Translations under genes and position numbers: made by a program
Part shown: positions 16,900-46,200 of the stretch, one piece after another
How positions within the stretch are numbered: position 1 is the stretch's first letter
How the letters are laid out: every line of letters begins with the position of its first letter
The notes under the pieces: generated by a model
Database searches by the model: none
What the model saw: the letters and a program-made list of their open reading frames with translations, nothing else
What the model was told of the DNA's origin: nothing
Assembly (NCBI RefSeq): GCF_026151205.1
Contig: NC_087078.1
Coordinates: forward strand, 6,899,675-6,963,674
From: Bolinopsis microptera
Lineage: Eukaryota; Ctenophora; Tentaculata; Lobata; Bolinopsidae
Direction of reading: 5' to 3'
DNA length: 64,000 bases

Positions 16900-17310
16900 G
16901 TTGCATTAATGTAGTCTTAAACGAGCTATTGTTGTCTTATGTTTGTCTTAAATCGTTTGTTTGTTTAATGTTTGTCTTAATGTTGTCTAATTGAGTTTGT
17001 GTCATTAAAAATAGACAAAAAAAAAAAAAAATTTAAAAAAAAAAAAAAAAAACATTTTTAATGATTATCTTAATGTTGTCTTAATGTTGTTCTTAATATT
17101 TTATCTATTTTGTTCTATCGTGTTTGTTTGTCTTATTGTTGTCTTTATTTTGTCCCTTATTGTGTCTTATTGGTTGCCTGTAATTGTTGTCTTAATGTTG
17201 CCCTTAATGTTGTACTTAATGTTTGCCTTTAATGGGGTTGGTTAGGGCCCCTTAATTGTTGCCTTAATGTTGGTCTTAATGTGTCTTATCGTTTGTTGTC
17301 TTATTGTGTT
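16900..17310. repeat. Low-complexity TTGTCTTAATG tract with poly-A core
   Basis: The words TTGTCTTAATG, TTGTTTGTCTTA and close variants recur throughout, split by a run of about 30 A/T-only bases (17019-17052) that is nearly pure A. The repeats are irregular in spacing, so this is a degenerate simple-sequence region, not a clean array. Confidence 0.7.
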
Positions 17311-19841: not shown

Positions 19842-19849
19842 ATAGTATA
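19842..19849. repeat. Left target-site duplication of the Merlin element
   Basis: ATAGTATA directly abuts the first base of the left inverted repeat and matches 23361-23368 exactly. Confidence 0.9.
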
Positions 19850-20232
19850 GGTAACTCGGTAATCTGCCGATGCACATCTGGGGCACACCTCGGGCACACC
19901 TGGGGCACAAACTCGGGCACACCTGGGGCACACCTCGGGCACACCTGGGGCACAAAGCGCACCTCGGGCACACCTCGGGCAGAACCACCTGGGGCACACC
20001 TCGGGCACACCTCGGGCACATCTCGGGCACATCTCGGGCAAAATTCGGGCATGGTAATTGGGGAACCTTGGGAAAAGAACCTGGGCACACCCGGGGCACA
20101 TCTCGGGCACATCTCGGGCACATCTCGGGCACACCTCGGGCAAAACCACCTGGGGCACATCTCAGGCACACCTGGGGCACATCTCGGGCACACCTCGGGC
20201 AAAACCACCTGGGGCACGGTCATTCGGGCAAT
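19850..20232. repeat. Left terminal inverted repeat, minisatellite-based
   Basis: A unique outer end (GGTAACTCGGTAATCTGCCG…) is followed by an array of 11-bp units of the form CACCTCGGGCA, with CACCTGGGGCA and CATCTCGGGCA as main variants. A non-repeat island (GGTAATTGGGGAACCTTGGG at about 20053) interrupts it. The inner end is CATTCGGGCAAT at 20232. Long open frames cross the array in several phases on both strands only because an 11-bp unit without stops cycles through all frames. An imperfect 32-bp palindrome lies just inside at 20288-20319. Confidence 0.9.
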
Positions 20233-20484
20233 GAATTATGGCTGGGCTACTAACCTCAATGATATCATTTATTACCTAATTATATTTGCGATAGTATTAT
20301 ACTAGTATTATACTATCGCAATATAATATATATGAGCAATATAATTTTCAGAGACACATATCTAATATCTATTTATTTACGAACAAGTGAAAAACACGAT
20401 TGAACTGAACATAATAATTTCATTAAACTGTAAGCAATATATTACATAATCAATCGGTATATTTACAAAACTATTAAACACATT

Positions 20485-21456
20485 CTAATCAAAAATTCTA
20501 CGCATCAACTGCGGGAGCTCCTGGTTAAAATATCTTCTGACGGAAGGGCCGGAGCGGGTCAGGTGGTTCCTTCTCAGCCAGATGAATTCAGCGAGGGCGA
20601 TGTAGAGGGCTGAGGTGTCTCTTCGCGTCCTGCCGTGTCCTCGTAGCATGTGCCTCTTGGCGTGAAACCACATGCCCTCACATGTATTCGTATGAACACC
20701 GGTGACGGGGTCGACGAAGCCTCTGCTGTGGTTTACGACCAAGTGGGTGTAGCCGTGGTGTCGGAGGGCGTTGTACCCCTTCCACTTGTCGGTAAGGATG
20801 ATGGTCCCAGGAGCGACGTGTTGCTTGATTAGACGAAGAAGAGTGTGGTGGTTCCGTTTGTTGTCTGTGCACTCCACCAAGAAGCATTCGCCGGTAGTTC
20901 TGCAGTAGCCTCCAACGATCCACTTCCCGATCACTCGTCGTCCACGGTGGTACTTCCGTTTGCCGAACTTCGACTCGTCGATCTCCACGATGTGCCCGCG
21001 TCCTCCAATCTTCCTCGTTGCTCCGTTCTCCAGAAGGTCCTCCACCATACACTGTCGAATAGCTTTGTAAAGGGATCGCACTGTTTTCTCGTTCATCGAC
21101 AGGATTCTGGCTGCATCAGCAACGCTGGTACCGTTGACGAAGATCCAAAGTAGGTGGAGGAAGTTGATAAAGGTAATGTTGCGGTTGTAGAGGACACTTC
21201 CTGCTCTGACAGAGAGGTGGTGCTGACCGCCAGGACAGGACCAACAGTAGCCATCGCTGTACTTTGTGGAGGCGCAGGATCGTAGCTCCATGTAGGTGTG
21301 GCACTCTGGACAGAAATGGTTAGGACGTAGGAGTTCCACATCGAGGCAGTACTGTAGAGCTGTGGCTTCTGAAGAGAGGACTCCAGTTCTTCTGAGATCT
21401 TCGTAGGAGAGGAAAGTGAGAGCCATATTGAATGATAGTATTAGCTGTTTGCTCAT
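20485..21456 (-). CDS. Merlin transposase (IS1595/ISXO2-like DDE)
   Basis: It catalyses cut-and-paste movement of the surrounding element by cleaving and joining DNA at the terminal repeats. In the 323-codon frame, residues 46-78 form a zinc ribbon (CPEC at 49-52, CWSC at 71-74). Residues 100-135 look like a helix-turn-helix (VADAARILSMNEKTVRSLY). The ISXO2-like catalytic domain follows, with D160 (VEIDESKFGKRK), D223 (ILTDKWKGYN) and E260 in HTNTCEGMWFHAKR, the family's usual third-residue context. Length is normal for Merlin. A TATA box lies 2-9 bp above the first ATG, too close for a transcript to include it, so translation probably begins at Met11 (21424-21426, MALTFLSYEDL). A poly-A signal (AATAAA on the minus strand, 20372-20377) lies about 110 bp beyond the stop. 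No frameshift or stop is seen. Confidence 0.93.
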   Translation of the reverse strand: MSKQLILSFNMALTFLSYEDLRRTGVLSSEATALQYCLDVELLRPNHFCPECHTYMELRSCASTKYSDGYCWSCPGGQHHLSVRAGSVLYNRNITFINFLHLLWIFVNGTSVADAARILSMNEKTVRSLYKAIRQCMVEDLLENGATRKIGGRGHIVEIDESKFGKRKYHRGRRVIGKWIVGGYCRTTGECFLVECTDNKRNHHTLLRLIKQHVAPGTIILTDKWKGYNALRHHGYTHLVVNHSRGFVDPVTGVHTNTCEGMWFHAKRHMLRGHGRTRRDTSALYIALAEFIWLRRNHLTRSGPSVRRYFNQELPQLMRRIFD

Positions 21457-21457
21457 G

Positions 21458-21465
21458 TTTATATA
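21458..21465 (-). promoter_or_regulatory. TATA box of the transposase gene
   Basis: On the minus strand the sequence reads GATATATAAAC. It sits 2 bp above the first in-frame ATG and about 31 bp above Met11. This spacing fits a transcription start between the two and argues for Met11 as the real start. Confidence 0.6.
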
Positions 21466-21764
21466 TCTCGACTGGAATTTTGACCGCTTGCTGGGACGTC
21501 ACAGAAGAGTACCTTATATTTGTCACGATCGCAAGACTTTGTTGTTCTTCTTATCACGTCACATGACTAGATCAAACATTCCGATTACGATGAGGCGAAG
21601 GCATTTTGATTTCTTGCCATAGCGTCACGTGAGAGGGGCTGTGAATACTCACCACGTGATCCATGTTACCGTGTTATGGCTACCATCTTGTTGGGCCATG
21701 CGATCCATGCGATCAATGCGATCCGAACCGTGAATTAACAAGCTCTGATCCCGAAACCCTCGGG

Positions 21765-21770
21765 TATAAA
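21765..21770 (+). promoter_or_regulatory. TATA box of the second Merlin gene
   Basis: GGGTATAAAGG lies 71 bp upstream of the ATG at 21841. With the opposite-strand box at 21458-21465 it makes the region between the two genes a bidirectional promoter of about 0.3 kb. Confidence 0.6.
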
Positions 21771-21840
21771 GGTTGTTATCGCATAGGTTCCTCATACCAG
21801 TTTTCGTTCTACTACCACAACATATCTACTACTATTCATC

Positions 21841-22659
21841 ATGCCTACACGATCCGGACTTCGACTATCCCGACCTATTCCTCCCCCAACTTGCAGTCAT
21901 TGTGGCGCACGAGGTCACATCAACACAGTGTGTCCACGATCCTCCTACTCTCCTGTTATCCCAGCCCTCACCTGCCCCCACTGCATCCGAACAGTCCGAA
22001 GTGGACAGAGTAACGAGCCAGACGGTACGCAGATAGTGGTTACGATAGACCCCTGCGATACACACTCCTCTCCTGTCGTCAGACCGTCTCCCCCTCCCCC
22101 TCACACCCCTGCTGCTCCTACAGCACCTGTGGTTCTTCCTCCTCCTCCCCCTCGAGCTGTCGTTCCGGTAACCTCAGCACATGTTCCAGTTCCCGCTCCC
22201 GCTCCCGCTCCCGCTCCCGCTCCCGCTCCCGCTCCCGCTCCCGCTCCCGCTCCCGCTCCGGCTCCGGCTACTGTTCCGGCTGCCGCTCCTGGTCCGGCTG
22301 CCGCTACAGCTCCCACCGGTCCTGTTCCGGCCCCTTATCCTGGTTCGAGCCGCACCTTCACCATCGACGGAGAAGTTTCAAAATACGACAGGATCCTGGC
22401 ACGTGTCCGGAATGGTGCTACGAAGAAGGAGGCACTCGCTGCAGAGGGGATATCTGAGTCCTTTTTCGGCAGGAAGCGCTGCATAGCAGAGGCAGCGAGG
22501 ATTGACCTACCTTCTCTCCGACATGGACTCCTCCAGCTGATAAATCCCACGCTAAAAAACCTTCTACCAGTGGCCAGGGATATCTGCAACCGGAACCAAA
22601 CTGTGCTTCGCACACTCCACGCTTCAGGAGAAGCACTCCCTCCCAAGAGGATATACTGA
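21841..22659 (+). CDS. Merlin accessory protein: zinc knuckle, (Pro-Ala)n linker, C-terminal domain
   Basis: A 272-residue protein lies inside the transposon, divergent from the transposase. Near the N-terminus is a CCHC zinc knuckle (CSHCGARGHINTVC: C18, C21, H26, C31), then a CPHC pair (45-48), as if a second zinc site. A Pro-rich segment leads into about 17 alternating Pro-Ala pairs (about 113-150), which should form an extended spacer. The last ~95 residues are folded-looking and basic: DGEVSKYDRILARVRNGATK, KEALAAEGISESFFGRKR, then two predicted helices. The middle resembles a helix-turn-helix of the resolvase/homeodomain-like kind, but I do not recognise the family. Known Merlin elements are usually described with the transposase alone. 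A role in binding the repeat-rich ends or assembling the transpososome is inference. A poly-A signal lies at 22810-22815. Confidence 0.85.
   Translation: MPTRSGLRLSRPIPPPTCSHCGARGHINTVCPRSSYSPVIPALTCPHCIRTVRSGQSNEPDGTQIVVTIDPCDTHSSPVVRPSPPPPHTPAAPTAPVVLPPPPPRAVVPVTSAHVPVPAPAPAPAPAPAPAPAPAPAPAPAPATVPAAAPGPAAATAPTGPVPAPYPGSSRTFTIDGEVSKYDRILARVRNGATKKEALAAEGISESFFGRKRCIAEAARIDLPSLRHGLLQLINPTLKNLLPVARDICNRNQTVLRTLHASGEALPPKRIY
22200..22275 (+). repeat. CCCGCT hexanucleotide repeat coding (Pro-Ala)n
   Basis: A near-perfect run of CCCGCT units within the accessory gene. It is in frame with the protein and codes the alternating Pro-Ala spacer, so length changes would keep the frame. Confidence 0.9.
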
Positions 22660-22943
22660 TTTATTTTGTAGTTACAGTAATACTTATAGTTTTTAATGGT
22701 TATGAGATGTTCCGATTGATACTTTAATAATATAATATTGCTTACCTATTAAATTTATTAGATACATTATGAACAGATCAATCGTATTTTTCAATTGCTC
22801 GTTAATAATAATAAATACATTTTTTTAATAATAAAATTGTGTCCATGAAAATTATATTGCTCATACATATAGTTTAATACTGTCACCAATATAAGTAATA
22901 TAAATAATGATATCTATCATCACAGTAATAAATAATAATCCAT

Positions 22944-23360
22944 ATTGCCCGAATGACCGTGCCCCAGGTGGTTTTGCCCGAGATGTGCCCCAGGTGTGCC
23001 TGAGATGTGCCCCAGGTGTGCCCCAGGTGGTTCTGCCCGAGGTGTGCCCGAGATGTGCCCGAGATGTGCCACGGGTGTGCCCAGGTTCTTTTCCCAAGGT
23101 TTCCCAATTACCATGCCCGAGATGTGCCCGAGGTGTGCCCGAGGTGTGCCCGAGGTGTGCCCGAGGTGTGCCCCAGGTGGTTCTGCCCGAGGTGTGCCCG
23201 AGGTGTGCTTTGTGCCCCAGGTGTGCCCGAGGTGTGCCCGAGGTGTGCCCGAGTTTGTGCCCCAGGTGTGCCCGAGGTGTGCCCGAGGTGTGCCCGAGTT
23301 TGTGCCCCAGGTGTGCCCGAGGTGTGCCCGAGGTGTGCATCGGCAGATTACCGAGTTACC
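22944..23360. repeat. Right terminal inverted repeat, minisatellite-based
   Basis: This is the reverse complement of the left repeat, including the outer end, the non-repeat island (about 23082-23114) and the inner boundary ATTGCCCGAATG. It is about 34 bp longer than the left repeat, close to three 11-bp units, so the two ends differ in unit number as well as in scattered substitutions. Confidence 0.9.
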
Positions 23361-23368
23361 ATAGTATA
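23361..23368. repeat. Right target-site duplication of the Merlin element
   Basis: ATAGTATA directly follows the last base of the right inverted repeat and matches 19842-19849 exactly. Confidence 0.9.
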
Positions 23369-34350: not shown

Positions 34351-35026
34351 CTGACACACACACTGACACACTGACACACTGACACACTGACATTCTGACA
34401 CACTGACACACTGACACACTGACATACTGACACACTGACACACTGACACACTGACACACTGACTCACTGACTCACTGACTCACTGACTCACTGACTCACT
34501 GACTCACTGACTCACTGACACACTGACACACTGACACACTGACATACTGACACACTGACACACTGACACACTGACACACTGACACACTGACACACTGACA
34601 CACTGACACACTGACATACTGACATACTGACACACTGACATACTGACACACTGACATACTGACACACTGACACACTGACACACTGACACACTGACACACT
34701 GACACACTGACACACTGACACACTGACACACTGACACACTGACACACTGACACACTGACACACTGACACACTGACTCACTGACTCACTGACTCACTGACA
34801 CACTGACACACTGACACACTGACACACTGACACACTGACACACTGACACACTGACACACTGACACACTGACACACTGACACACTGACACACTGACACACT
34901 GACACACTGACACACTGACACACTGACACACTGACACACTGACACACTGACACACTGACACACTGACACACTGACACACTGACACACTGACACACTGACA
35001 CACTGACACACTGAAACACTGACACA
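34351..35026. repeat. 8-bp tandem array (TGACACAC)n with TGACTCAC and TGACATAC variants
   Basis: About 84 units. The main unit is TGACACAC. Seven consecutive TGACTCAC units lie at about 34460-34516 and three more at 34772-34796; single TGACATAC units are scattered in the left half. Because eight is not a multiple of three and the unit has no stops on the minus strand, several minus frames read as endless Cys-Val-Ser-Gln strings; these are not genes. Confidence 0.95.
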
Positions 35027-36917: not shown

Positions 36918-38282
36918 TTAAGGGGGGGGGCCAATGGATATTTTTTTGTGAAACTTGATTTCGAGATAGCAGTTGACCAACAAACTAAGACCAGTGACCG
37001 AACTTTTGAGGGGGTCCCGGACCCCAACCGCCAAACGGTGCCCGCGGGGCAGCCACGCCCTTATTTGGTCCAAATTAGGCCCAATTTAGCCAAATACTCT
37101 GAACATGCCCAAAACCCAAATTTTAGGTGCTCTACTTGTAGCTAGTGGCCTCTTGAAGTCGTATATGAAATTTCATCAAGATTGGACAAAAAATGACTGA
37201 GTTATGAGCCAAAAACCATATGCCCATATTTGGGCATACGCACCAAATTTGGTAGATTTCGTCCCATAAATTGGTCAAATATCAATATTTTTCACTGAAA
37301 CTTACTTTATATGAAAGGTAAGCCTAAACTACATATTCTCTGTAAGTTATAGCTTTATATCTGTTTAAATGTGGATACTAAGGCGAAAAGACCACAAAAA
37401 ATGAACTAAATTGCCCATATCTTGGTTCGCGATATTCGCGGAATTGATCTCATTAAAATTGTAACAACTCAATCAGTTTTCAAAATTTTTCCATGAAATT
37501 TTCGGAATCGACTCGAAATCGCATTTCCACCTTAGTTTGAGGACAGATTTTTGATTAAGGCCTCAAAAAAAATTTGGCGGCCAAATTCTGAATTTCTCCG
37601 GGAAAATTTTGGAATTTGGCCGCCAAATTTTTTTGGAGGCCTAAATCAAAAATCTGTTCTCAAACTAAGGTGGAAATGCGATTTCGAGTCGATTCCGAAA
37701 ATTTCATGGAAAAATTTTGAAAACTGATTGAGTTGTTACAATTTTAATGAGATCAATTCCGCGAATATCGCGAACCAAGATATGGGCAATTTAGTTCATT
37801 TTTTGTGGTCTTTTCGCCTTAGTATCCACATTTAAACAGATATAAAGCTATAACTTACAGAGAATATGTAGTTTAGGCTTACCTTTCATATAAAGTAAGT
37901 TTCAGTGAAAAATATTGATATTTGACCAATTTATGGGACGAAATCTACCAAATTTGGTGCGTATGCCCAAATATGGGCATATGGTTTTTGGCTCATAACT
38001 CAGTCATTTTTTGTCCAATCTTGATGAAATTTCATATACGAGTTCAAGAGACCACTAGCTACAAGTAGAGCACCTAAAATTTGGGTTTTGGGCATGTTCA
38101 GGGTATTTGGCTAAATTGGGCCTAATTTGGACCAAATATGGGCGTGGCTGCCCCGCAGGCACCGTTTGGCGGTTAGGGTCCGGGACCCCCTCAAAAGTTC
38201 GGTCACTGGTCCTAGTTTGTTGGTCAACTGCTATCTCGAAATCAAGTTTCACAAAAAAATATCCATTGGCCCCCCCCCTTAA
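36918..38282. mobile_element. Giant palindromic element, TTAA-bounded, 1365 bp
   Basis: The two arms (about 36918-37585 and 37615-38282) are near-perfect reverse complements, centred at about 37600. Both ends read TTAAGGGGGGGGGCCAATGG toward the inside. TTAA at both borders is the target site known for piggyBac-type elements, whose ends also start with a run of C/G; here no transposase is present. Arm identity is very high, with only scattered differences. The same 65-codon frame occurs in each arm (36948-37145 plus, 38055-38252 minus), which follows from the symmetry and is no evidence for coding. It lies between the innexin and mosaic-protein genes. Confidence 0.85.
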
Positions 38283-40284: not shown

Positions 40285-43200
40285 ATGAAAATATTGTATC
40301 TGGTTCTCCTCCTTTTTCGGAGTTGCTCTAGCGCTTATACGGAAGACGATGGTAAGAATTTATTATATACATATTATATATATATTATATTTTAATATAC
40401 TTTATATATATATTATACTTTAATTTATTATACAATATACATATACTTTAATGTCGAATCAATTAATTGAAACAGTAGTTTTGAAAACTTAAGCATTTTT
40501 TGATACCTATAAATACAAAAAATTGCTATATAAAAGTCCCGTTTCGTTTATAAACGAATTGCATAAATGTGAGCTGTATAAAATTTAGTACTATACCTGC
40601 AAATTAGAGATTTCACAGAATTTTTAAAAAAAATTGTATTAATACTCGTAAAAAGATGTTGGGATAGCTGATCCACCAATATTTGTATACTATGGTAGTC
40701 ATTTAACTTTAACGCGGCAACGTGCCTGAAATACAGCCTAGGCATTAGTAATTTATGCATTACCGATTGACTGTTGGTTCTTTGCAGGTTTCTTAGATAT
40801 TTTTTAGGAAGCGCTATATACTTATAACTATTACAATAGCTTCCGCCATTTCATAATACAAAATACAATGCGAATATCCTTTTTTTACTCTTCAACTTTC
40901 ACGTCCATGTTTTAATAATTCGTATTTTTTGTTTTCAGGAGAGCCGGAATGGGAAATTCAACAAAAAAATGTCTGGTTTCCACACTCCTGGGAGGATATA
41001 CCTTTTGAATTGAAGACAACCTCCTCGATAGGAAGTGGTGATCGAATCTGGTTTGAAGTTGGGCACTTAAACGGCAATGTTTTTGCAAGAGTTGTAGTGC
41101 GATTAGTTGATACTCCTAACTTCGAAATTGACAACTGCCAAGGTGATACTACGCTGCAAAATCTACCCGACGCTCAAAATGACGTGAGGATTTGGACATT
41201 CATTAAGCAGGGATTGAAAGGAATTTCAATCAAGTGTAACGGAGTATTGGTTGCAGAAATGAATTTTGCTGAATCAGATCAATGTTCGTCCTCAGTGTGG
41301 GTGACTACTACAGTAGAATTCATCAAGCTTAATCCTGATTGGGATAGATCAGTGGGATTCAGATTTGGTCAGTGGGTCTCAGGTGGGTTAATATTGTGTT
41401 ATCATTATTACCTGGGGACCCCAGGCTATTCCGCCGATCAGAGATATATAAGTTCTCGAAACTTCAAAAGTTTAAACCAAATAGATCTAGTGAGCTCGTA
41501 GGATCAAATAATTTACTGGCTAGCTGCCCGATACTCAGCTGCATGCTAGCGAGGTAAATCAATAATAGTACTAAATAGAATAGTAATACTTAATAGAATT
41601 AAATTTTCATTCTGATAATATAATCTTCTCACTTCATATTTTGTTCATTGTTACAGAATGTCAAGCTGGAAAATTCAGTGCTGCCGGATCTGCAACCTGT
41701 TCTGAATGCGAAGCTGGGGAATTCAGTGCTGCTGGATCTGCAACCTGTTCTAAATGCGAAGCTGGGGAATTCAGTGCTGCCGGATCTGCAACCTGTTCTG
41801 AATGCGAAGCTGGGGAATTCAGTGTTGCTGGATCTGCAACCTGTTCTGAATGCGAAGCTGGGGAATTCAGTGCTGCTGGATCTGCAACCTGTTCTGAATG
41901 CGAAGCTGGAAAATTCAGTGCTGCCGGATCTGCAACCTGTTATGAATGCGAAGCTGGAAAATTCAGTGCTGCCGGATCTGCAACCTGTTCTGAATGCGAA
42001 GCTGGAAAATTCAGTGCTGCCGGATCTGCAACCTGTTCTGAATGCGAAGCTGGGAAATTCAGTGCTGCTGGATCTGCAACCTGTTCTGAATGCGAAGCTG
42101 GAAAATGCAGTGCAGCCGGATCTGCAACCTGTTCTGAATGCGAAGCTGGAAAATTCAGTGCTGCCGGATCTGCAACCTGTTCTGAATGCGAAGCTGGGGA
42201 ATTCAGTGCTGATGGATCTGCAACCTGTTCTGAATGCGAAGCTTGGGAATTCAGTGCTGCTGGATCTGCAACCTGTTCTGAATGCGAAGCTGGGGAATTC
42301 AGTGCTGCCGGATCTGCAACCTGTTCTGAATGCGAAGCTGGGGAATTCAGTGTTGCTGGATCTGCAACCTGTTCTGAATGCGAAGCTGGGGAATTCAGTG
42401 CTGCTGGATCTGCAACCTGTTCTGAATGCGAAGCTGGAAAATTCAGTGCTGCCGGATCTGCAACCTGTTATGAATGCGAAGCTGGAAAATTCAGTGCTGC
42501 CGGATCTGCAACCTGTTCTGAATGCGAAGCTGGAAAATTCAGTGCTGCCGGATCTGCAACCTGTTCTGAATGCGAAGCTGGGAAATTCAGTGCTGCTGGA
42601 TCTGCAACCTGTTCTGAATGCGAAGCTGGAAAATGCAGTGCAGCCGGATCTGCAACCTGTTCTGAATGCGAAGCTGGAAAATTCAGTGCTGCCGGATCTG
42701 CAACCTGTTCTGAATGCGAAGCTGGGGAATTCAGTGCTGATGGATCTGCAACCTGTTCTGAATGCGAAGCTTGGGAATTCAGTGCTGCTGGATCTGCAAC
42801 CTGTTCTGAATGCGAAGCTGGAAAATTCAGTGCTGCCGGATCTGCAACCTGTTCTGAATGCGAAGCTGGAAAATTCAGTGCTGCCGGATCTGCAACCTGT
42901 TCTGAATGCGAAGCTGGGGAATTCAGTGCTGCAGGATCTGATTCTTGCAGTTCTTGCGAAATAGGAAAAGAGGCTAACTCTGAGAAAACTAATTGTAGTG
43001 AGTATCGGGATTTCAATTGTTAATTTTGTATTTCAAAATTCAAATAAATTTCACATCAAAATGTTGCAATTAAATTTACACAAGACCAAAATATCTATAT
43101 AATGAGGCAACAACAAGATTTATGAAGGTACAAGGAACATGATAATGAAAATCAACACTACCAGACTGCAGCTGAAGTGAGGAAACATTTGACTGTGGGA

Positions 43201-46200
43201 TATACTGAAGGGAAAGGAAGCAGTTCTAACGAGCTCTTCTCAAACACAAGGATATATCTTGTGAACGTGGCTAGTATAAATGAAACATTTGATATGGAGT
43301 TGTAGAGGGAGTTATGTGCCTCGCCGGGCTTAAGTAGTGGATGACCTTGCTGTACGCAGTGGCGTAACGTTGCCTGTTGGCGCCCCCCTGCCGAAAAGGC
43401 GCCCCCCTGTTGGCGCCCACTCCCCTTTTGGTGCCCCTCCCTAAAATTGAACAAATTAGGTGATTTTAGAGGATACGCCGGTAAAATCTCTAAAAAAGTG
43501 TGTATCTAGAGCAAAACGCGCAGTTTTGCTAGTACTTTAGTTAAGTTTTCGAAATTGTCCCACATTCAAACGACGATTTGGCGCCCCCCTAAGACGGCGC
43601 CCCCCTGCACAGCGGGGTCAGCAGGGCCCTTCGTTACGCCACTGGCTGTACGGCAAGTTAAACAAGGATCTGAAACTACTAGGTTCCGTACAGACTCAAC
43701 TCTGCACCCGTGTCAATATGTTCATTATATGCAAGCCTCTTGATTTATAATCACCGAGTCTAGTAATTGTTTAAGAGAGTGCTCTGGCAGTTACGAAACT
43801 CGAGAGACTGTGGGATACTGAAGGGAAAGGAAGCAGTTCTAACGAGCTCTTCTCAAACACAAGGATATATCTTGTGAACGTGGCTAGTATAAATGAAACA
43901 TTTGATATGGAGTTGTAGAGGGAGTTATGTGCCTCGCCGGGCTAAAGTAGTGGATGACCTTGCTGTACGGCAAGTTAAACAAGGATCTGAAACTACTAGG
44001 TTCCGTACAGACTCAACTCTGCACCCGTGTCAATATGTTCATTATATGCAAGCCTCTTGATTTATAATCTATTTCGATTAAACCAAAACAGTGCACGCGA
44101 CGGTTCAACCATAATGACATCAAGTGTAATATTGTCCAGGAACAAGAAGAGTTGTTCGTAATCAGAGTAGTATAGTTTATTTTGGCCAGTTGGTAGATCA
44201 CCGACCGGCTATAAGCCGGCTACTAACCGGCTTTAAGCCGGCTACAATTTTTATAGCCGGCTATAAGCCGGCTTATAGCCGGTTAGTAGCCGCTTACATT
44301 TGTTGTTGAGCGACGGCTATTAGCCGGTTATAAGCCTGCTATTAGCCGTTTTGGTATTAAAAGTGGTTATAAGCCGGCTATAAGCCGGTTATAAGATACT
44401 AACTCAACTACATCGTACTGAACGATAGTCAGGAGCCGGCTATAAGAAATTCAGTGAAAACGGCTATTAGCCGGTTATAAGCCGGCTATTAGCCGTTTAG
44501 GTATCGAAAGTGGTTATAAGCCGGCTATAAGCCGGCTATAAGCCGGTTATAAGATATTAACTCAGTTCAGTACGATGAAGTTAAGTTAATATCTTATAGC
44601 CGGCTTATAGCCGGCTTATAACCACTTTCGATACCTAAACGGCTAATAGCCGGCTTATAACCGGCTTATAGCCGTTTTCGCTGAATTTCTTATAGCCGGC
44701 TCATGACTATCGTTCAGTACGATGTAGTTGAGTTAATATCTTATAACCGGCTTATAGCCCGCTTATAACCACTTTCGATACCTAAACGGCTAATAGCCGG
44801 CTTATAACCGGCTAATAGCCGTTTTCACTGAATTTCTTATAGCCGATACCTAAACGGCTAATAGCCGGCTTATAACCGGCTAATAGCCGTCGCTCAACAA
44901 CAAATGTAAGCGGCTACTAACCGGCTATAAGCCGGCTATAAAAATTGTAGCCGGCTATAAGCCGGTTTATAGCCGGCTTATAACCGGCTTATAGCCGGTC
45001 GGTGATCTACCAATTTCCCTTTATTTTTAAATAGACATGGAACCAACTTCCTAATGGTTGATAACCTTTTCAGTGTCCTGTCTAGCGGGTACCTACAAAG
45101 ACAGTTCCATGGAAGCGTGTCTGCAGTGTTCTAGTAACACCTACAGTGCAGAGAGTGCGGGATTCTGTACTGCTTGTCCTCAAGGATCTCAAGCAAATGA
45201 AAATCGGACAAAATGCGGTAAATCTTTTAAGTTTTTATTTGACTCGAAGCTTTGCAATTCATTTTTTGCTATACCTGCCTTATATTATGGTTTTGGCAAA
45301 TAAATGTAGGACTTACGACGTAAACAAAGTGTCTGTAACCTTGCACAAAAATCATTTAATAATCCTTATTTGAACAAATAAAAAAAGTATGATTAACAAC
45401 AATATCAATCATGTACTCCATCCTCAGTTTCATGTGAGAGCTTGCCCTCAAGCTGGGAACAGATAATGACACAGTCACAGTTCCCCCTCGCACCTGGGAG
45501 TGAAGTGTCCTTGATGTGTAGCACCGGACACACTCTGACTGGAGCCAGCACTGTCACGTGTATTGAGGAAGATGACTTCTCCTTCAACGAAGAGCCTTTT
45601 TGTGTTCTAGGTTTGAAGATCCGCTGTATTAAAGTATTAGATACGCTATTTTTTTCCTCAAATTTGTAATTTGATGTAGTAATATAGCATATTATCATTA
45701 ATAAAGTGTTTCTGTTAACTTTTCTCCATCAAGGCTTCATTTTGCTTTTCTTTAAAAAGTTAATTTAAAGCATCATATTTTTCGCATATGAGTGTGGTGT
45801 TAACTGTTAAATCATGTGTTTTTTCTCCTTTTTATTTCCTAAGTCATTTTAATCGTCGCACCTTGACTTATAGCTTAGTAATTAAAATATACATACAGAC
45901 GACTGCAGCAAACTGCCGAACATCCAGAACCTAGGAACAACCACCCAATTTCCTGTTTCCTACGATACCCGGGTAACAGTGCATTGTGATGCTGGGTACT
46001 CTCTTGTAGGTGGTGACGTCATCACATGTATCCAGGATGATAACTATAAAACTATTGATGGTCAACTTCCTTCTTGCGAAGAAAGTGAGTTTATCGTTGT
46101 TACTTCTACCATTAACGGTTTTATGTATTTAGAGCTGAATATGGAAAAGATTTCTACTTTGCCAGGTTAACCACACAATTGCACGATACTGTTGACTGTT

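Follow-up and report, generated by a model that had tools for sequence, protein, structure and literature searches.

Does a Merlin transposon with a second gene represent a single accident, or is it a kind of element of its own? A Merlin element is usually described as one transposase gene between inverted ends, although this is not a defining rule. The element at positions 19850 to 23360 of the Bolinopsis microptera DNA analysed here (64,000 nucleotides of contig NC_087078.1, the whole of which is called the window below) has ends built from 11-bp repeats and carries, besides the transposase gene, a second gene, open reading frame 2 (ORF2). In this study, we found that ORF2 accompanies the Merlin transposases of families A (that of the window element), B and D and of the deep lineage III (IIIa and IIIb) in the window's genome. 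These comparisons indicate that the two-gene kind of Merlin is old in this genome. ORF2 is probably a partner protein that binds the repeated ends, by analogy with TnpA of the plant transposon En/Spm.

Structure of the window element

The element has exact limits at 19850 and 23360, and ATAGTATA flanks it on both sides (19842..19849 and 23361..23368), which is the 8-bp target-site duplication reported in an earlier sequence-only reading of the window. The left terminal inverted repeat (19850..20232, forward strand, 383 bp) starts with GGTAACTCGGTAATCTGCCGATGCA, that is, with GG, and with the right one (22944..23360, reverse strand, 417 bp) the element ends as GG...CC. The two ends pair as ungapped blocks of 260 nt (95%), 142 nt (89%) and 107 nt (97%). 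Each holds an 11-bp tandem array on the forward strand: the unit GCACACCTCGG in 29.3 copies on the left (19872..20201; tandem-repeat listing and autocorrelation) and the unit TGCCCGAGGTG in 32.3 copies on the right (22975..23338; tandem-repeat listing). The earlier description of matching inverted ends of about 0.4 kb made of 11-bp repeats was accurate.

The genome searched for copies was the window's own (265 Mb), and all matches seen lay on 13 large contigs. One ionotropic glutamate receptor gene was compared with PDB, where AMPA and kainate receptors were the best matches listed; these point to no particular host. Family A is represented there by three more near-full copies of 95% identity and by many shorter matches. 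Among eight family A stretches with both ends, the duplication is exact (8/8) in five, agrees at 7/8 bases in one and is absent from two, and the exact duplications differ in sequence from one insertion to another. Because of the near-full copies and these differing duplications, the structure is not a product of chance, and 19850-23360 is confirmed as a complete cut-and-paste Merlin element that moves as a unit. The sequence-only reading had also taken Merlin ends to be short. That part failed: end lengths of 24-462 bp are given in the available text of PMC8101967, so ends of 0.4 kb are not unusual by themselves.

The transposase gene lies on the reverse strand (20485..21426). Its frame is intact and matches PF12762 (DDE_Tnp_IS1595; E 1.9e-15; 57.6 bits, with the cut-off at 27) and NCBIfam NF033547 (IS1595; E 1.5e-30). 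The distance from the catalytic D to E is 36 residues in all five transposases in which it was measurable (A, B, D, IIIa and IIIb), and this DD36E spacing is a Merlin signature. The transposase had been called intact-looking, which agrees with the open frame, the PF12762 match and the DD36E spacing. PF12762 is also matched by transposases of B, D and IIIa. Four cysteines upstream of the helix-turn-helix (HTH) region are invariant in the five aligned transposases, and these transposases did not match Zn_Tnp_IS1595 in the Pfam scan. The search for relatives of the transposase by alignment found no confirmed one in viral contigs or prokaryote genomes, and profile searches of PDB with the transposase and with ORF2 gave nothing significant (best E 0.16 for ORF2 and 0.18 for transposase profiles).

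The second ATG (21426), which gives 313 amino acids (aa), is the likelier start of the transposase. A TATA box candidate (TATAAA, 21458..21463, reverse strand) adjoins the first ATG (21456), which would give 323 aa, and the frame from the second ATG is 313 aa in all four family A copies examined. A candidate AATAAA poly-A signal lies 3' of the gene (20372..20377, reverse strand), with a further AATAAA at 20268.

The second gene

ORF2 (21841..22659, forward strand) is an open frame of 272 aa, divergent from the transposase gene. On the same strand it has a TATA box candidate (TATAAA, 21765..21770) and a candidate AATAAA poly-A signal (22810..22815), with further AATAAA at 22830 and 22927. The sequence-only reading had claimed a divergent second gene with its own TATA box and poly-A signal, and these are present; the AATAAA signals are weak evidence, because AATAAA is common in AT-rich DNA. 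A CX2CX4HX4C zinc-knuckle pattern (CSHCGARGHINTVC, 21892..21933, forward strand) was recognised by eye. It recurs in the ORF2 relatives of B, C, D and E, and in family B it scores E 0.01 on PF00098, which is below the cut-off of that model. A Pro/Ala-rich linker, encoded by a 6-bp repeat whose length varies between copies (22191..22314, forward strand), is followed by a C-terminal HTH-like domain (22348..22656, forward strand), which profile comparison indicates. Pfam scans of the ORF2 proteins from A, B, D and IIIa gave no match to a named transposon accessory family.

In family A, ORF2 is complete and open in five of the eight loci read (the window, C10, C9 and two on C3). The complete frames have 260-272 aa, and the linker accounts for this spread. 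The locus on C1 is frameshifted, and in two others the exact start string is absent. When the linker is set aside and only the domains are compared, 3-4 synonymous and 0-2 nonsynonymous changes separate the window ORF2 from the other four complete frames. Such counts fit selection on the protein, but the evidence is thin. The linker can also expand: in L034 (1-2100; C7:2043795) it has grown to many hundred PPPAAAQQ-type residues within a 2080-aa open frame.

Two-gene elements elsewhere in the genome

Family B includes five divergent two-gene copies (L043+L069, L047+L070, L044+L071, L045+L072 and L046+L073). Its transposase is 62-64% identical to that of A. Its ORF2 (319-422 aa) is 46-48% identical to that of A in two end regions and is open to the same end in four of the five copies, a frameshift altering the end in the other. 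The ends are about 0.4 kb long with the 11-bp unit ACATTAAGACA, against GCACACCTCGG in A, and the six copies with both ends readable show four exact duplications, one with 7/8 bases and one without; a seventh, L049, is left out of this count because it meets the edge of the stretch examined. In family D (L076+L053, on C3), the transposase is 57-61% identical and ORF2 (264 aa) about 30%; the inverted arms of this copy have 549 aligned bases, with the unit CGGTTCTTAAC, and reach the edge of the stretch examined. The D copy L050 has arms of 298 aligned bases, begins with GG and shows no duplication.

The deep lineage III, whose transposase is 36-38% identical to that of A, goes beyond what the sequence-only reading had claimed. 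It had been tried as a single-gene control and was rejected as such, since ORF2 was found in L077, L078 and L079. In L077 (IIIa), a 217-aa ORF2 follows the transposase in tandem on the same strand. L078 (IIIa) has an ORF2 98% identical to that of L077, lacking residues 1-32 and disrupted by an insertion, within an element that has GGCAGT...ACTGCC ends and an 8/8 duplication (AAGAGGGC). L079 (IIIb) has a 288-aa ORF2 convergent with the transposase and an 8/8 duplication (GAGCACAG). Thus the gene order is divergent in A and B, tandem in IIIa and convergent in IIIb. The ends begin with GG in A, B, D (L050), IIIa and IIIb; those of IIIa and IIIb are palindrome-rich, with GGTCCATGGACC or GGTCCGCGGACC in place of 11-bp units. 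L068 has a transposase of 37% identity; in the genome search, a sequence matching ORF2 at 87% lay on the same strand at a distance of about 6.4 kb.

To count how often the two genes occur together, we used 58 stretches, which are best-hit loci, many with only 1.5 kb of flank per side, so the counts are not genome frequencies. The transposase is found in 36 and ORF2 in 44; both occur in 22, ORF2 alone in 22 and the transposase alone in 14. ORF2 is present in 14 of the 19 stretches with at least 240 transposase residues; the other five are L068, L050, the family B copies L048 and L049, and L007, a broken family A copy that lacks most of ORF2. The claim of a distinct lineage with two genes and repeat-built ends is supported by these counts and by the occurrence of ORF2 in A, B, D, IIIa and IIIb.

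The transposase-only copies of B and D would fit a one-off capture of ORF2 by an ordinary single-gene Merlin. This is highly improbable; the presence of ORF2 in A, B, D, IIIa and IIIb refutes it for this genome, and the B copies without ORF2 retain sequence 5' of the gene. L048 and L049 are about 98% identical to a two-gene B copy until 119 bp (L048) or 146 bp (L049) upstream of the ORF2 start; beyond this, the next match (82%, in repetitive DNA) begins within the right end or shortly before it. The upstream tandem repeat of L048 is shorter than that of the two-gene copy. Since the other families whose ends are defined have ORF2, we read L048 and L049 as deletion derivatives. Transposase-only copies between the same ends, which the sequence-only reading had linked to a one-off capture, exist in B, but they look like deletions rather than the original state.

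Groups C, E, F and G are fragmentary: parts of ORF2 or of the transposase adjoin 11-bp arrays with other sequences, and none of these groups showed an intact element. G may be nothing more than an outer array belonging to a C-like element. C-like copies have the transposase and ORF2 on one strand. Several fragments have unusual arrangements. At C6:10843000-10851500 (L074+L060+L075, 3298-4614), a 438-aa open frame joins a partial Merlin transposase to the ORF2 linker and C-terminal domain, and in L032 (1501-2151) the ORF2 N-terminal region continues into transposase sequence of the same strand, so that the two genes are fused here as well. In L030 and in L035+L028 (C6:15640405-15645697), both strands carry pieces of ORF2 and no transposase is present; in L035+L028, long inverted 11-bp arrays flank these pieces.

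Relationship of ORF2 to CCDC106

The C-terminal domains of ORF2 from group I (five sequences), to which the window belongs, and from lineage III (three) align over 70 columns with an hhalign score of 65.3; the highest score from 200 column shuffles was 18.5. As a control, the transposase HTH region scored 7-20 against the ORF2 domain profiles and 49 between the two lineages. Judging from these profiles, the two lineages share a homologous HTH-like domain. At the N-terminus, their cysteine regions resemble each other by eye (CxxC...H....C, then CxxC...CxxH). The identities of transposase and ORF2 are correlated over A, B, the C fragment, D, IIIa and IIIb (r=0.91; 1/720 permutations).

The same domain resembles CCDC106 (PF15794). 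ORF2 of IIIa, IIIb and L081 matches the C-terminal half of that model with E 1.6e-5 to 1.2e-4; the scores (24.6 bits for IIIa, 25.3 for the C-terminal part of IIIb and 24.5 for L081) are all below the curated cut-off of 30.2. In group I, only L027 of six sequences scanned matches, marginally (E 0.0078), and the window ORF2 does not. A tandem host-like cluster on C10 (L080, 10831000-10846000) carries the CCDC106 domain above the cut-off (36.9 and 34.1 bits), and no Merlin transposase lies near it among the matches listed. It is a candidate domesticated family. Its proteins score 49.2 against the group I domain (shuffle maximum 23.6) and 74.3 against that of lineage III (maximum 17.9). The ORF2 C-terminal domain and CCDC106 are likely to have a common origin. 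We also observed, at C5:7316800-7319400, that L081 is a full-length ORF2-type frame of 385 aa beside a reverse-transcriptase-like frame, with no Merlin transposase match nearby.

The C10 cluster, with its shared domain and no transposase nearby among the matches listed, raises the idea of a passenger gene: an ancestral Merlin would have captured a CCDC106-like gene of its host on one occasion and carried it ever since as ORF2. We consider this rather unlikely, because ORF2 has stayed open and its divergence has kept pace with that of the transposase across deeply diverged lineages, to a degree not expected from a passenger. The sequence-only reading had asked whether ORF2 is an ordinary host gene. 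None was found: the ORF2 matches of at least 84% are, as far as compared, within family A copies or fragments, and several diverged ORF2 relatives adjoin diverged Merlin transposases. However, 22 of the 44 ORF2 stretches, many with 1.5-kb flanks, have no transposase, which together with the domain shared by the C10 cluster counts against this outcome.

The 11-bp end repeats

Autocorrelation gave 11 as the strongest lag in all 14 group I arrays, and 15 and 36 in two IIIa arrays. The arrays were picked from period-11 tandem-repeat rows, so the lag-11 result is a description and not an independent test, and both element ends are defined only for A, B and D. In these three families, both ends carry the arrays in inverted form. 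Compared with the units of B and D, that of A shows only chance-level similarity. Since the period of 11 is common to A, B and D, the spacing outlived the sequence of the unit among them. We had considered the units to be wholly unrelated and softened this, because those of A and F (9/11) and of C and D and D and E (8/11 each) are still alike beyond shuffles (0.009-0.04, uncorrected over 28 pairs).

It is possible that the arrays are functionless selfish minisatellites, descended from one ancestral array, which ORF2 does not bind. In favour of this, the arrays grow and shrink (the right array of L049 is about 830 bp and a C array in L028 near 1 kb), similar units persist in the pairs just named, and the available text of PMC8101967 reports internal tandem repeats in some Merlins. 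Nevertheless, we regard this explanation as fairly improbable, because the period is kept where A and B or A and D share no more of the unit than chance, inverted arrays are kept in both ends, and the ends of lineage III carry repeated sites of another kind.

Period-11 arrays as a genome-wide background were also considered and rejected. Nine such rows lie elsewhere in the window, outside the element, and all but one, a short AT-rich row at 40361, belong to a foldback-like structure at 44190-45013. This has nested inverted arms of 11-bp units (CCGGCTATAAG), its ends are GGTAGATCACC/GGTGATCTACC by eye, and no 8-bp duplication was seen by eye. It seems to be a non-autonomous element built on the same plan. 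A decayed array at 17080-17280 resembles the end unit of family B (TTGTCTTATTG). The window also contains a near-perfect palindrome at 36918-38282 (682-nt arms, 98% complementary, 1 nt apart), a 48-bp repeat at 41656-42940 (26.8 copies, 95%), whose period is a multiple of three and which is possibly coding, and an 8-bp satellite at 34358-35026 (ACACACTG, 83.6 copies).

Proposed role of ORF2

The HTH-like domain, together with the sites repeated in the element ends (11-bp arrays in A, B and D, palindromes in IIIa and IIIb), suggests that in this old two-gene Merlin ORF2 probably acts like TnpA, as a partner of the transposase that binds those end sites. The transposase would cut at the GG...CC ends and insert with an 8-bp stagger. 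The C-terminal domain of ORF2 would bind the many repeated sites and coat the arrays, and ORF2 would gather both ends into one complex while the transposase cuts. A period of 11 bp is about one turn of DNA, and neighbouring sites could thus point to the same side of the helix. ORF2 perhaps also controls both promoters; TATA-like boxes were seen by eye 5' of both genes in A and IIIb. The pair would then work like TnpA and TnpD of En/Spm (CACTA), with presumably unrelated proteins.

ORF2 might instead be a regulator, of the element's promoters or of the host response, with the transposase alone recognising the end repeats. Such a role would suit the HTH-like domain, the divergent arrangement in family A, where each gene has its own TATA-like box, and the intact-looking transposases of L048 and L050, which lack ORF2 (that of L049 is broken near its end). 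However, the tandem genes of IIIa and the convergent genes of IIIb mean that a shared promoter is not constant, and the repeated sites sit in both ends, distant from the promoters. We therefore judge a purely regulatory role unlikely.

Several observations weigh against ORF2 as an end-binding partner. The transposase has an HTH region of its own and may bind the repeats itself. Copies without ORF2 exist (L048, L049, and L050, in which no ORF2 match was found; five of the 19 stretches above). Inserted bases disrupt the phase of the arrays in places, so a strictly one-faced arrangement of sites is not kept. The window ORF2 has no match in Pfam, and the N-terminal regions of the two lineages gave no profile match (13.1, no higher than scores reached in 150 shuffles). 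In front of the B transposase, a TATA box could not be made out by eye. With regard to selection, the ORF2 domains of the other four A copies differ among themselves by 0-1 synonymous and 0-2 nonsynonymous changes, and one whole-protein pair in family A has a ratio of 1.16.

A conserved partner protein, if true, would change models of Merlin elements and may explain the long repeat-built ends of some of them. More tentatively, Merlin may anciently have been two-component in part of its animal range, with a DD36E transposase and a zinc-knuckle/HTH partner that reads repeats spaced by a helical turn. The partner's domain would be the source of animal CCDC106, including the human protein, or share a source with it, as KolX does for part of P2X7, and the partner and the end repeats would coevolve with only the 11-bp spacing constant. 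We hold this broader view to be possible but doubtful. The paired proteins and 11-bp sites form a natural series for the study of protein-DNA coevolution, and they offer a testable origin story for the vertebrate protein family CCDC106.

Comparison with known transposons

With Merlin elements (IS1016/IS1595-related), the window family shares the DDE_Tnp_IS1595 domain, the DD36E spacing, inverted ends starting with GG and 8-bp duplications. The duplication of 8 or 9 bp that is typical of Merlin is found in A, B, IIIa and IIIb, whereas the sole D copy with both ends has none. The ends of A (383 and 417 bp) fall within the published range (24-462 bp, available text of PMC8101967), and the arms of the D copy on C3 (549) exceed it. 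The window family differs by the second conserved gene, so that the usual trait of a transposase as the only gene does not apply (ORF2 in 14/19 stretches with long transposases), by the 11-bp-array ends in A, B and D, and by four invariant cysteines before the transposase HTH region without a Zn_Tnp_IS1595 match. A Symbiodinium Merlin family has one opposite open reading frame overlapping the transposase, which was judged to be due to chance (PMC8101967, available text). A conserved second Merlin gene is not described in the available text of the searchable literature, PMC8101967, PMC4202319 and PMC9587614 among it; Repbase, supplements and most subscription papers are outside this scope. The earlier suggestion that the lineage is undescribed holds within this literature and no further.

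ORF2 of IIIa, IIIb and L081 resembles the CCDC106 family in its C-terminal domain and differs in that its scores are under the cut-off of that family. No paper on a link between CCDC106 and a transposon was found by title and abstract.

In En/Spm, TNPA binds subterminal repeats, and TNPA and TNPD are both required, according to the available text of PMC2613891. The likeness to the window family would be one of mode of working: in both, a transposase is joined by a second protein, and each end carries short repeats. En/Spm belongs to another transposase class, makes a 3-bp duplication against 8 bp here, and has a different end sequence. Kolobok Kol0 with KolX is a two-gene DNA transposon of animals, in which KolX is related to vertebrate P2X7 (PMC9587614, available text). 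Kol0 is thus alike in having two genes, the second encoding a protein with a vertebrate relative. It belongs to another superfamily, and KolX has a cytoplasmic ballast fold (PMC9587614), whereas ORF2 appears to be an HTH-like protein with a zinc-knuckle pattern.

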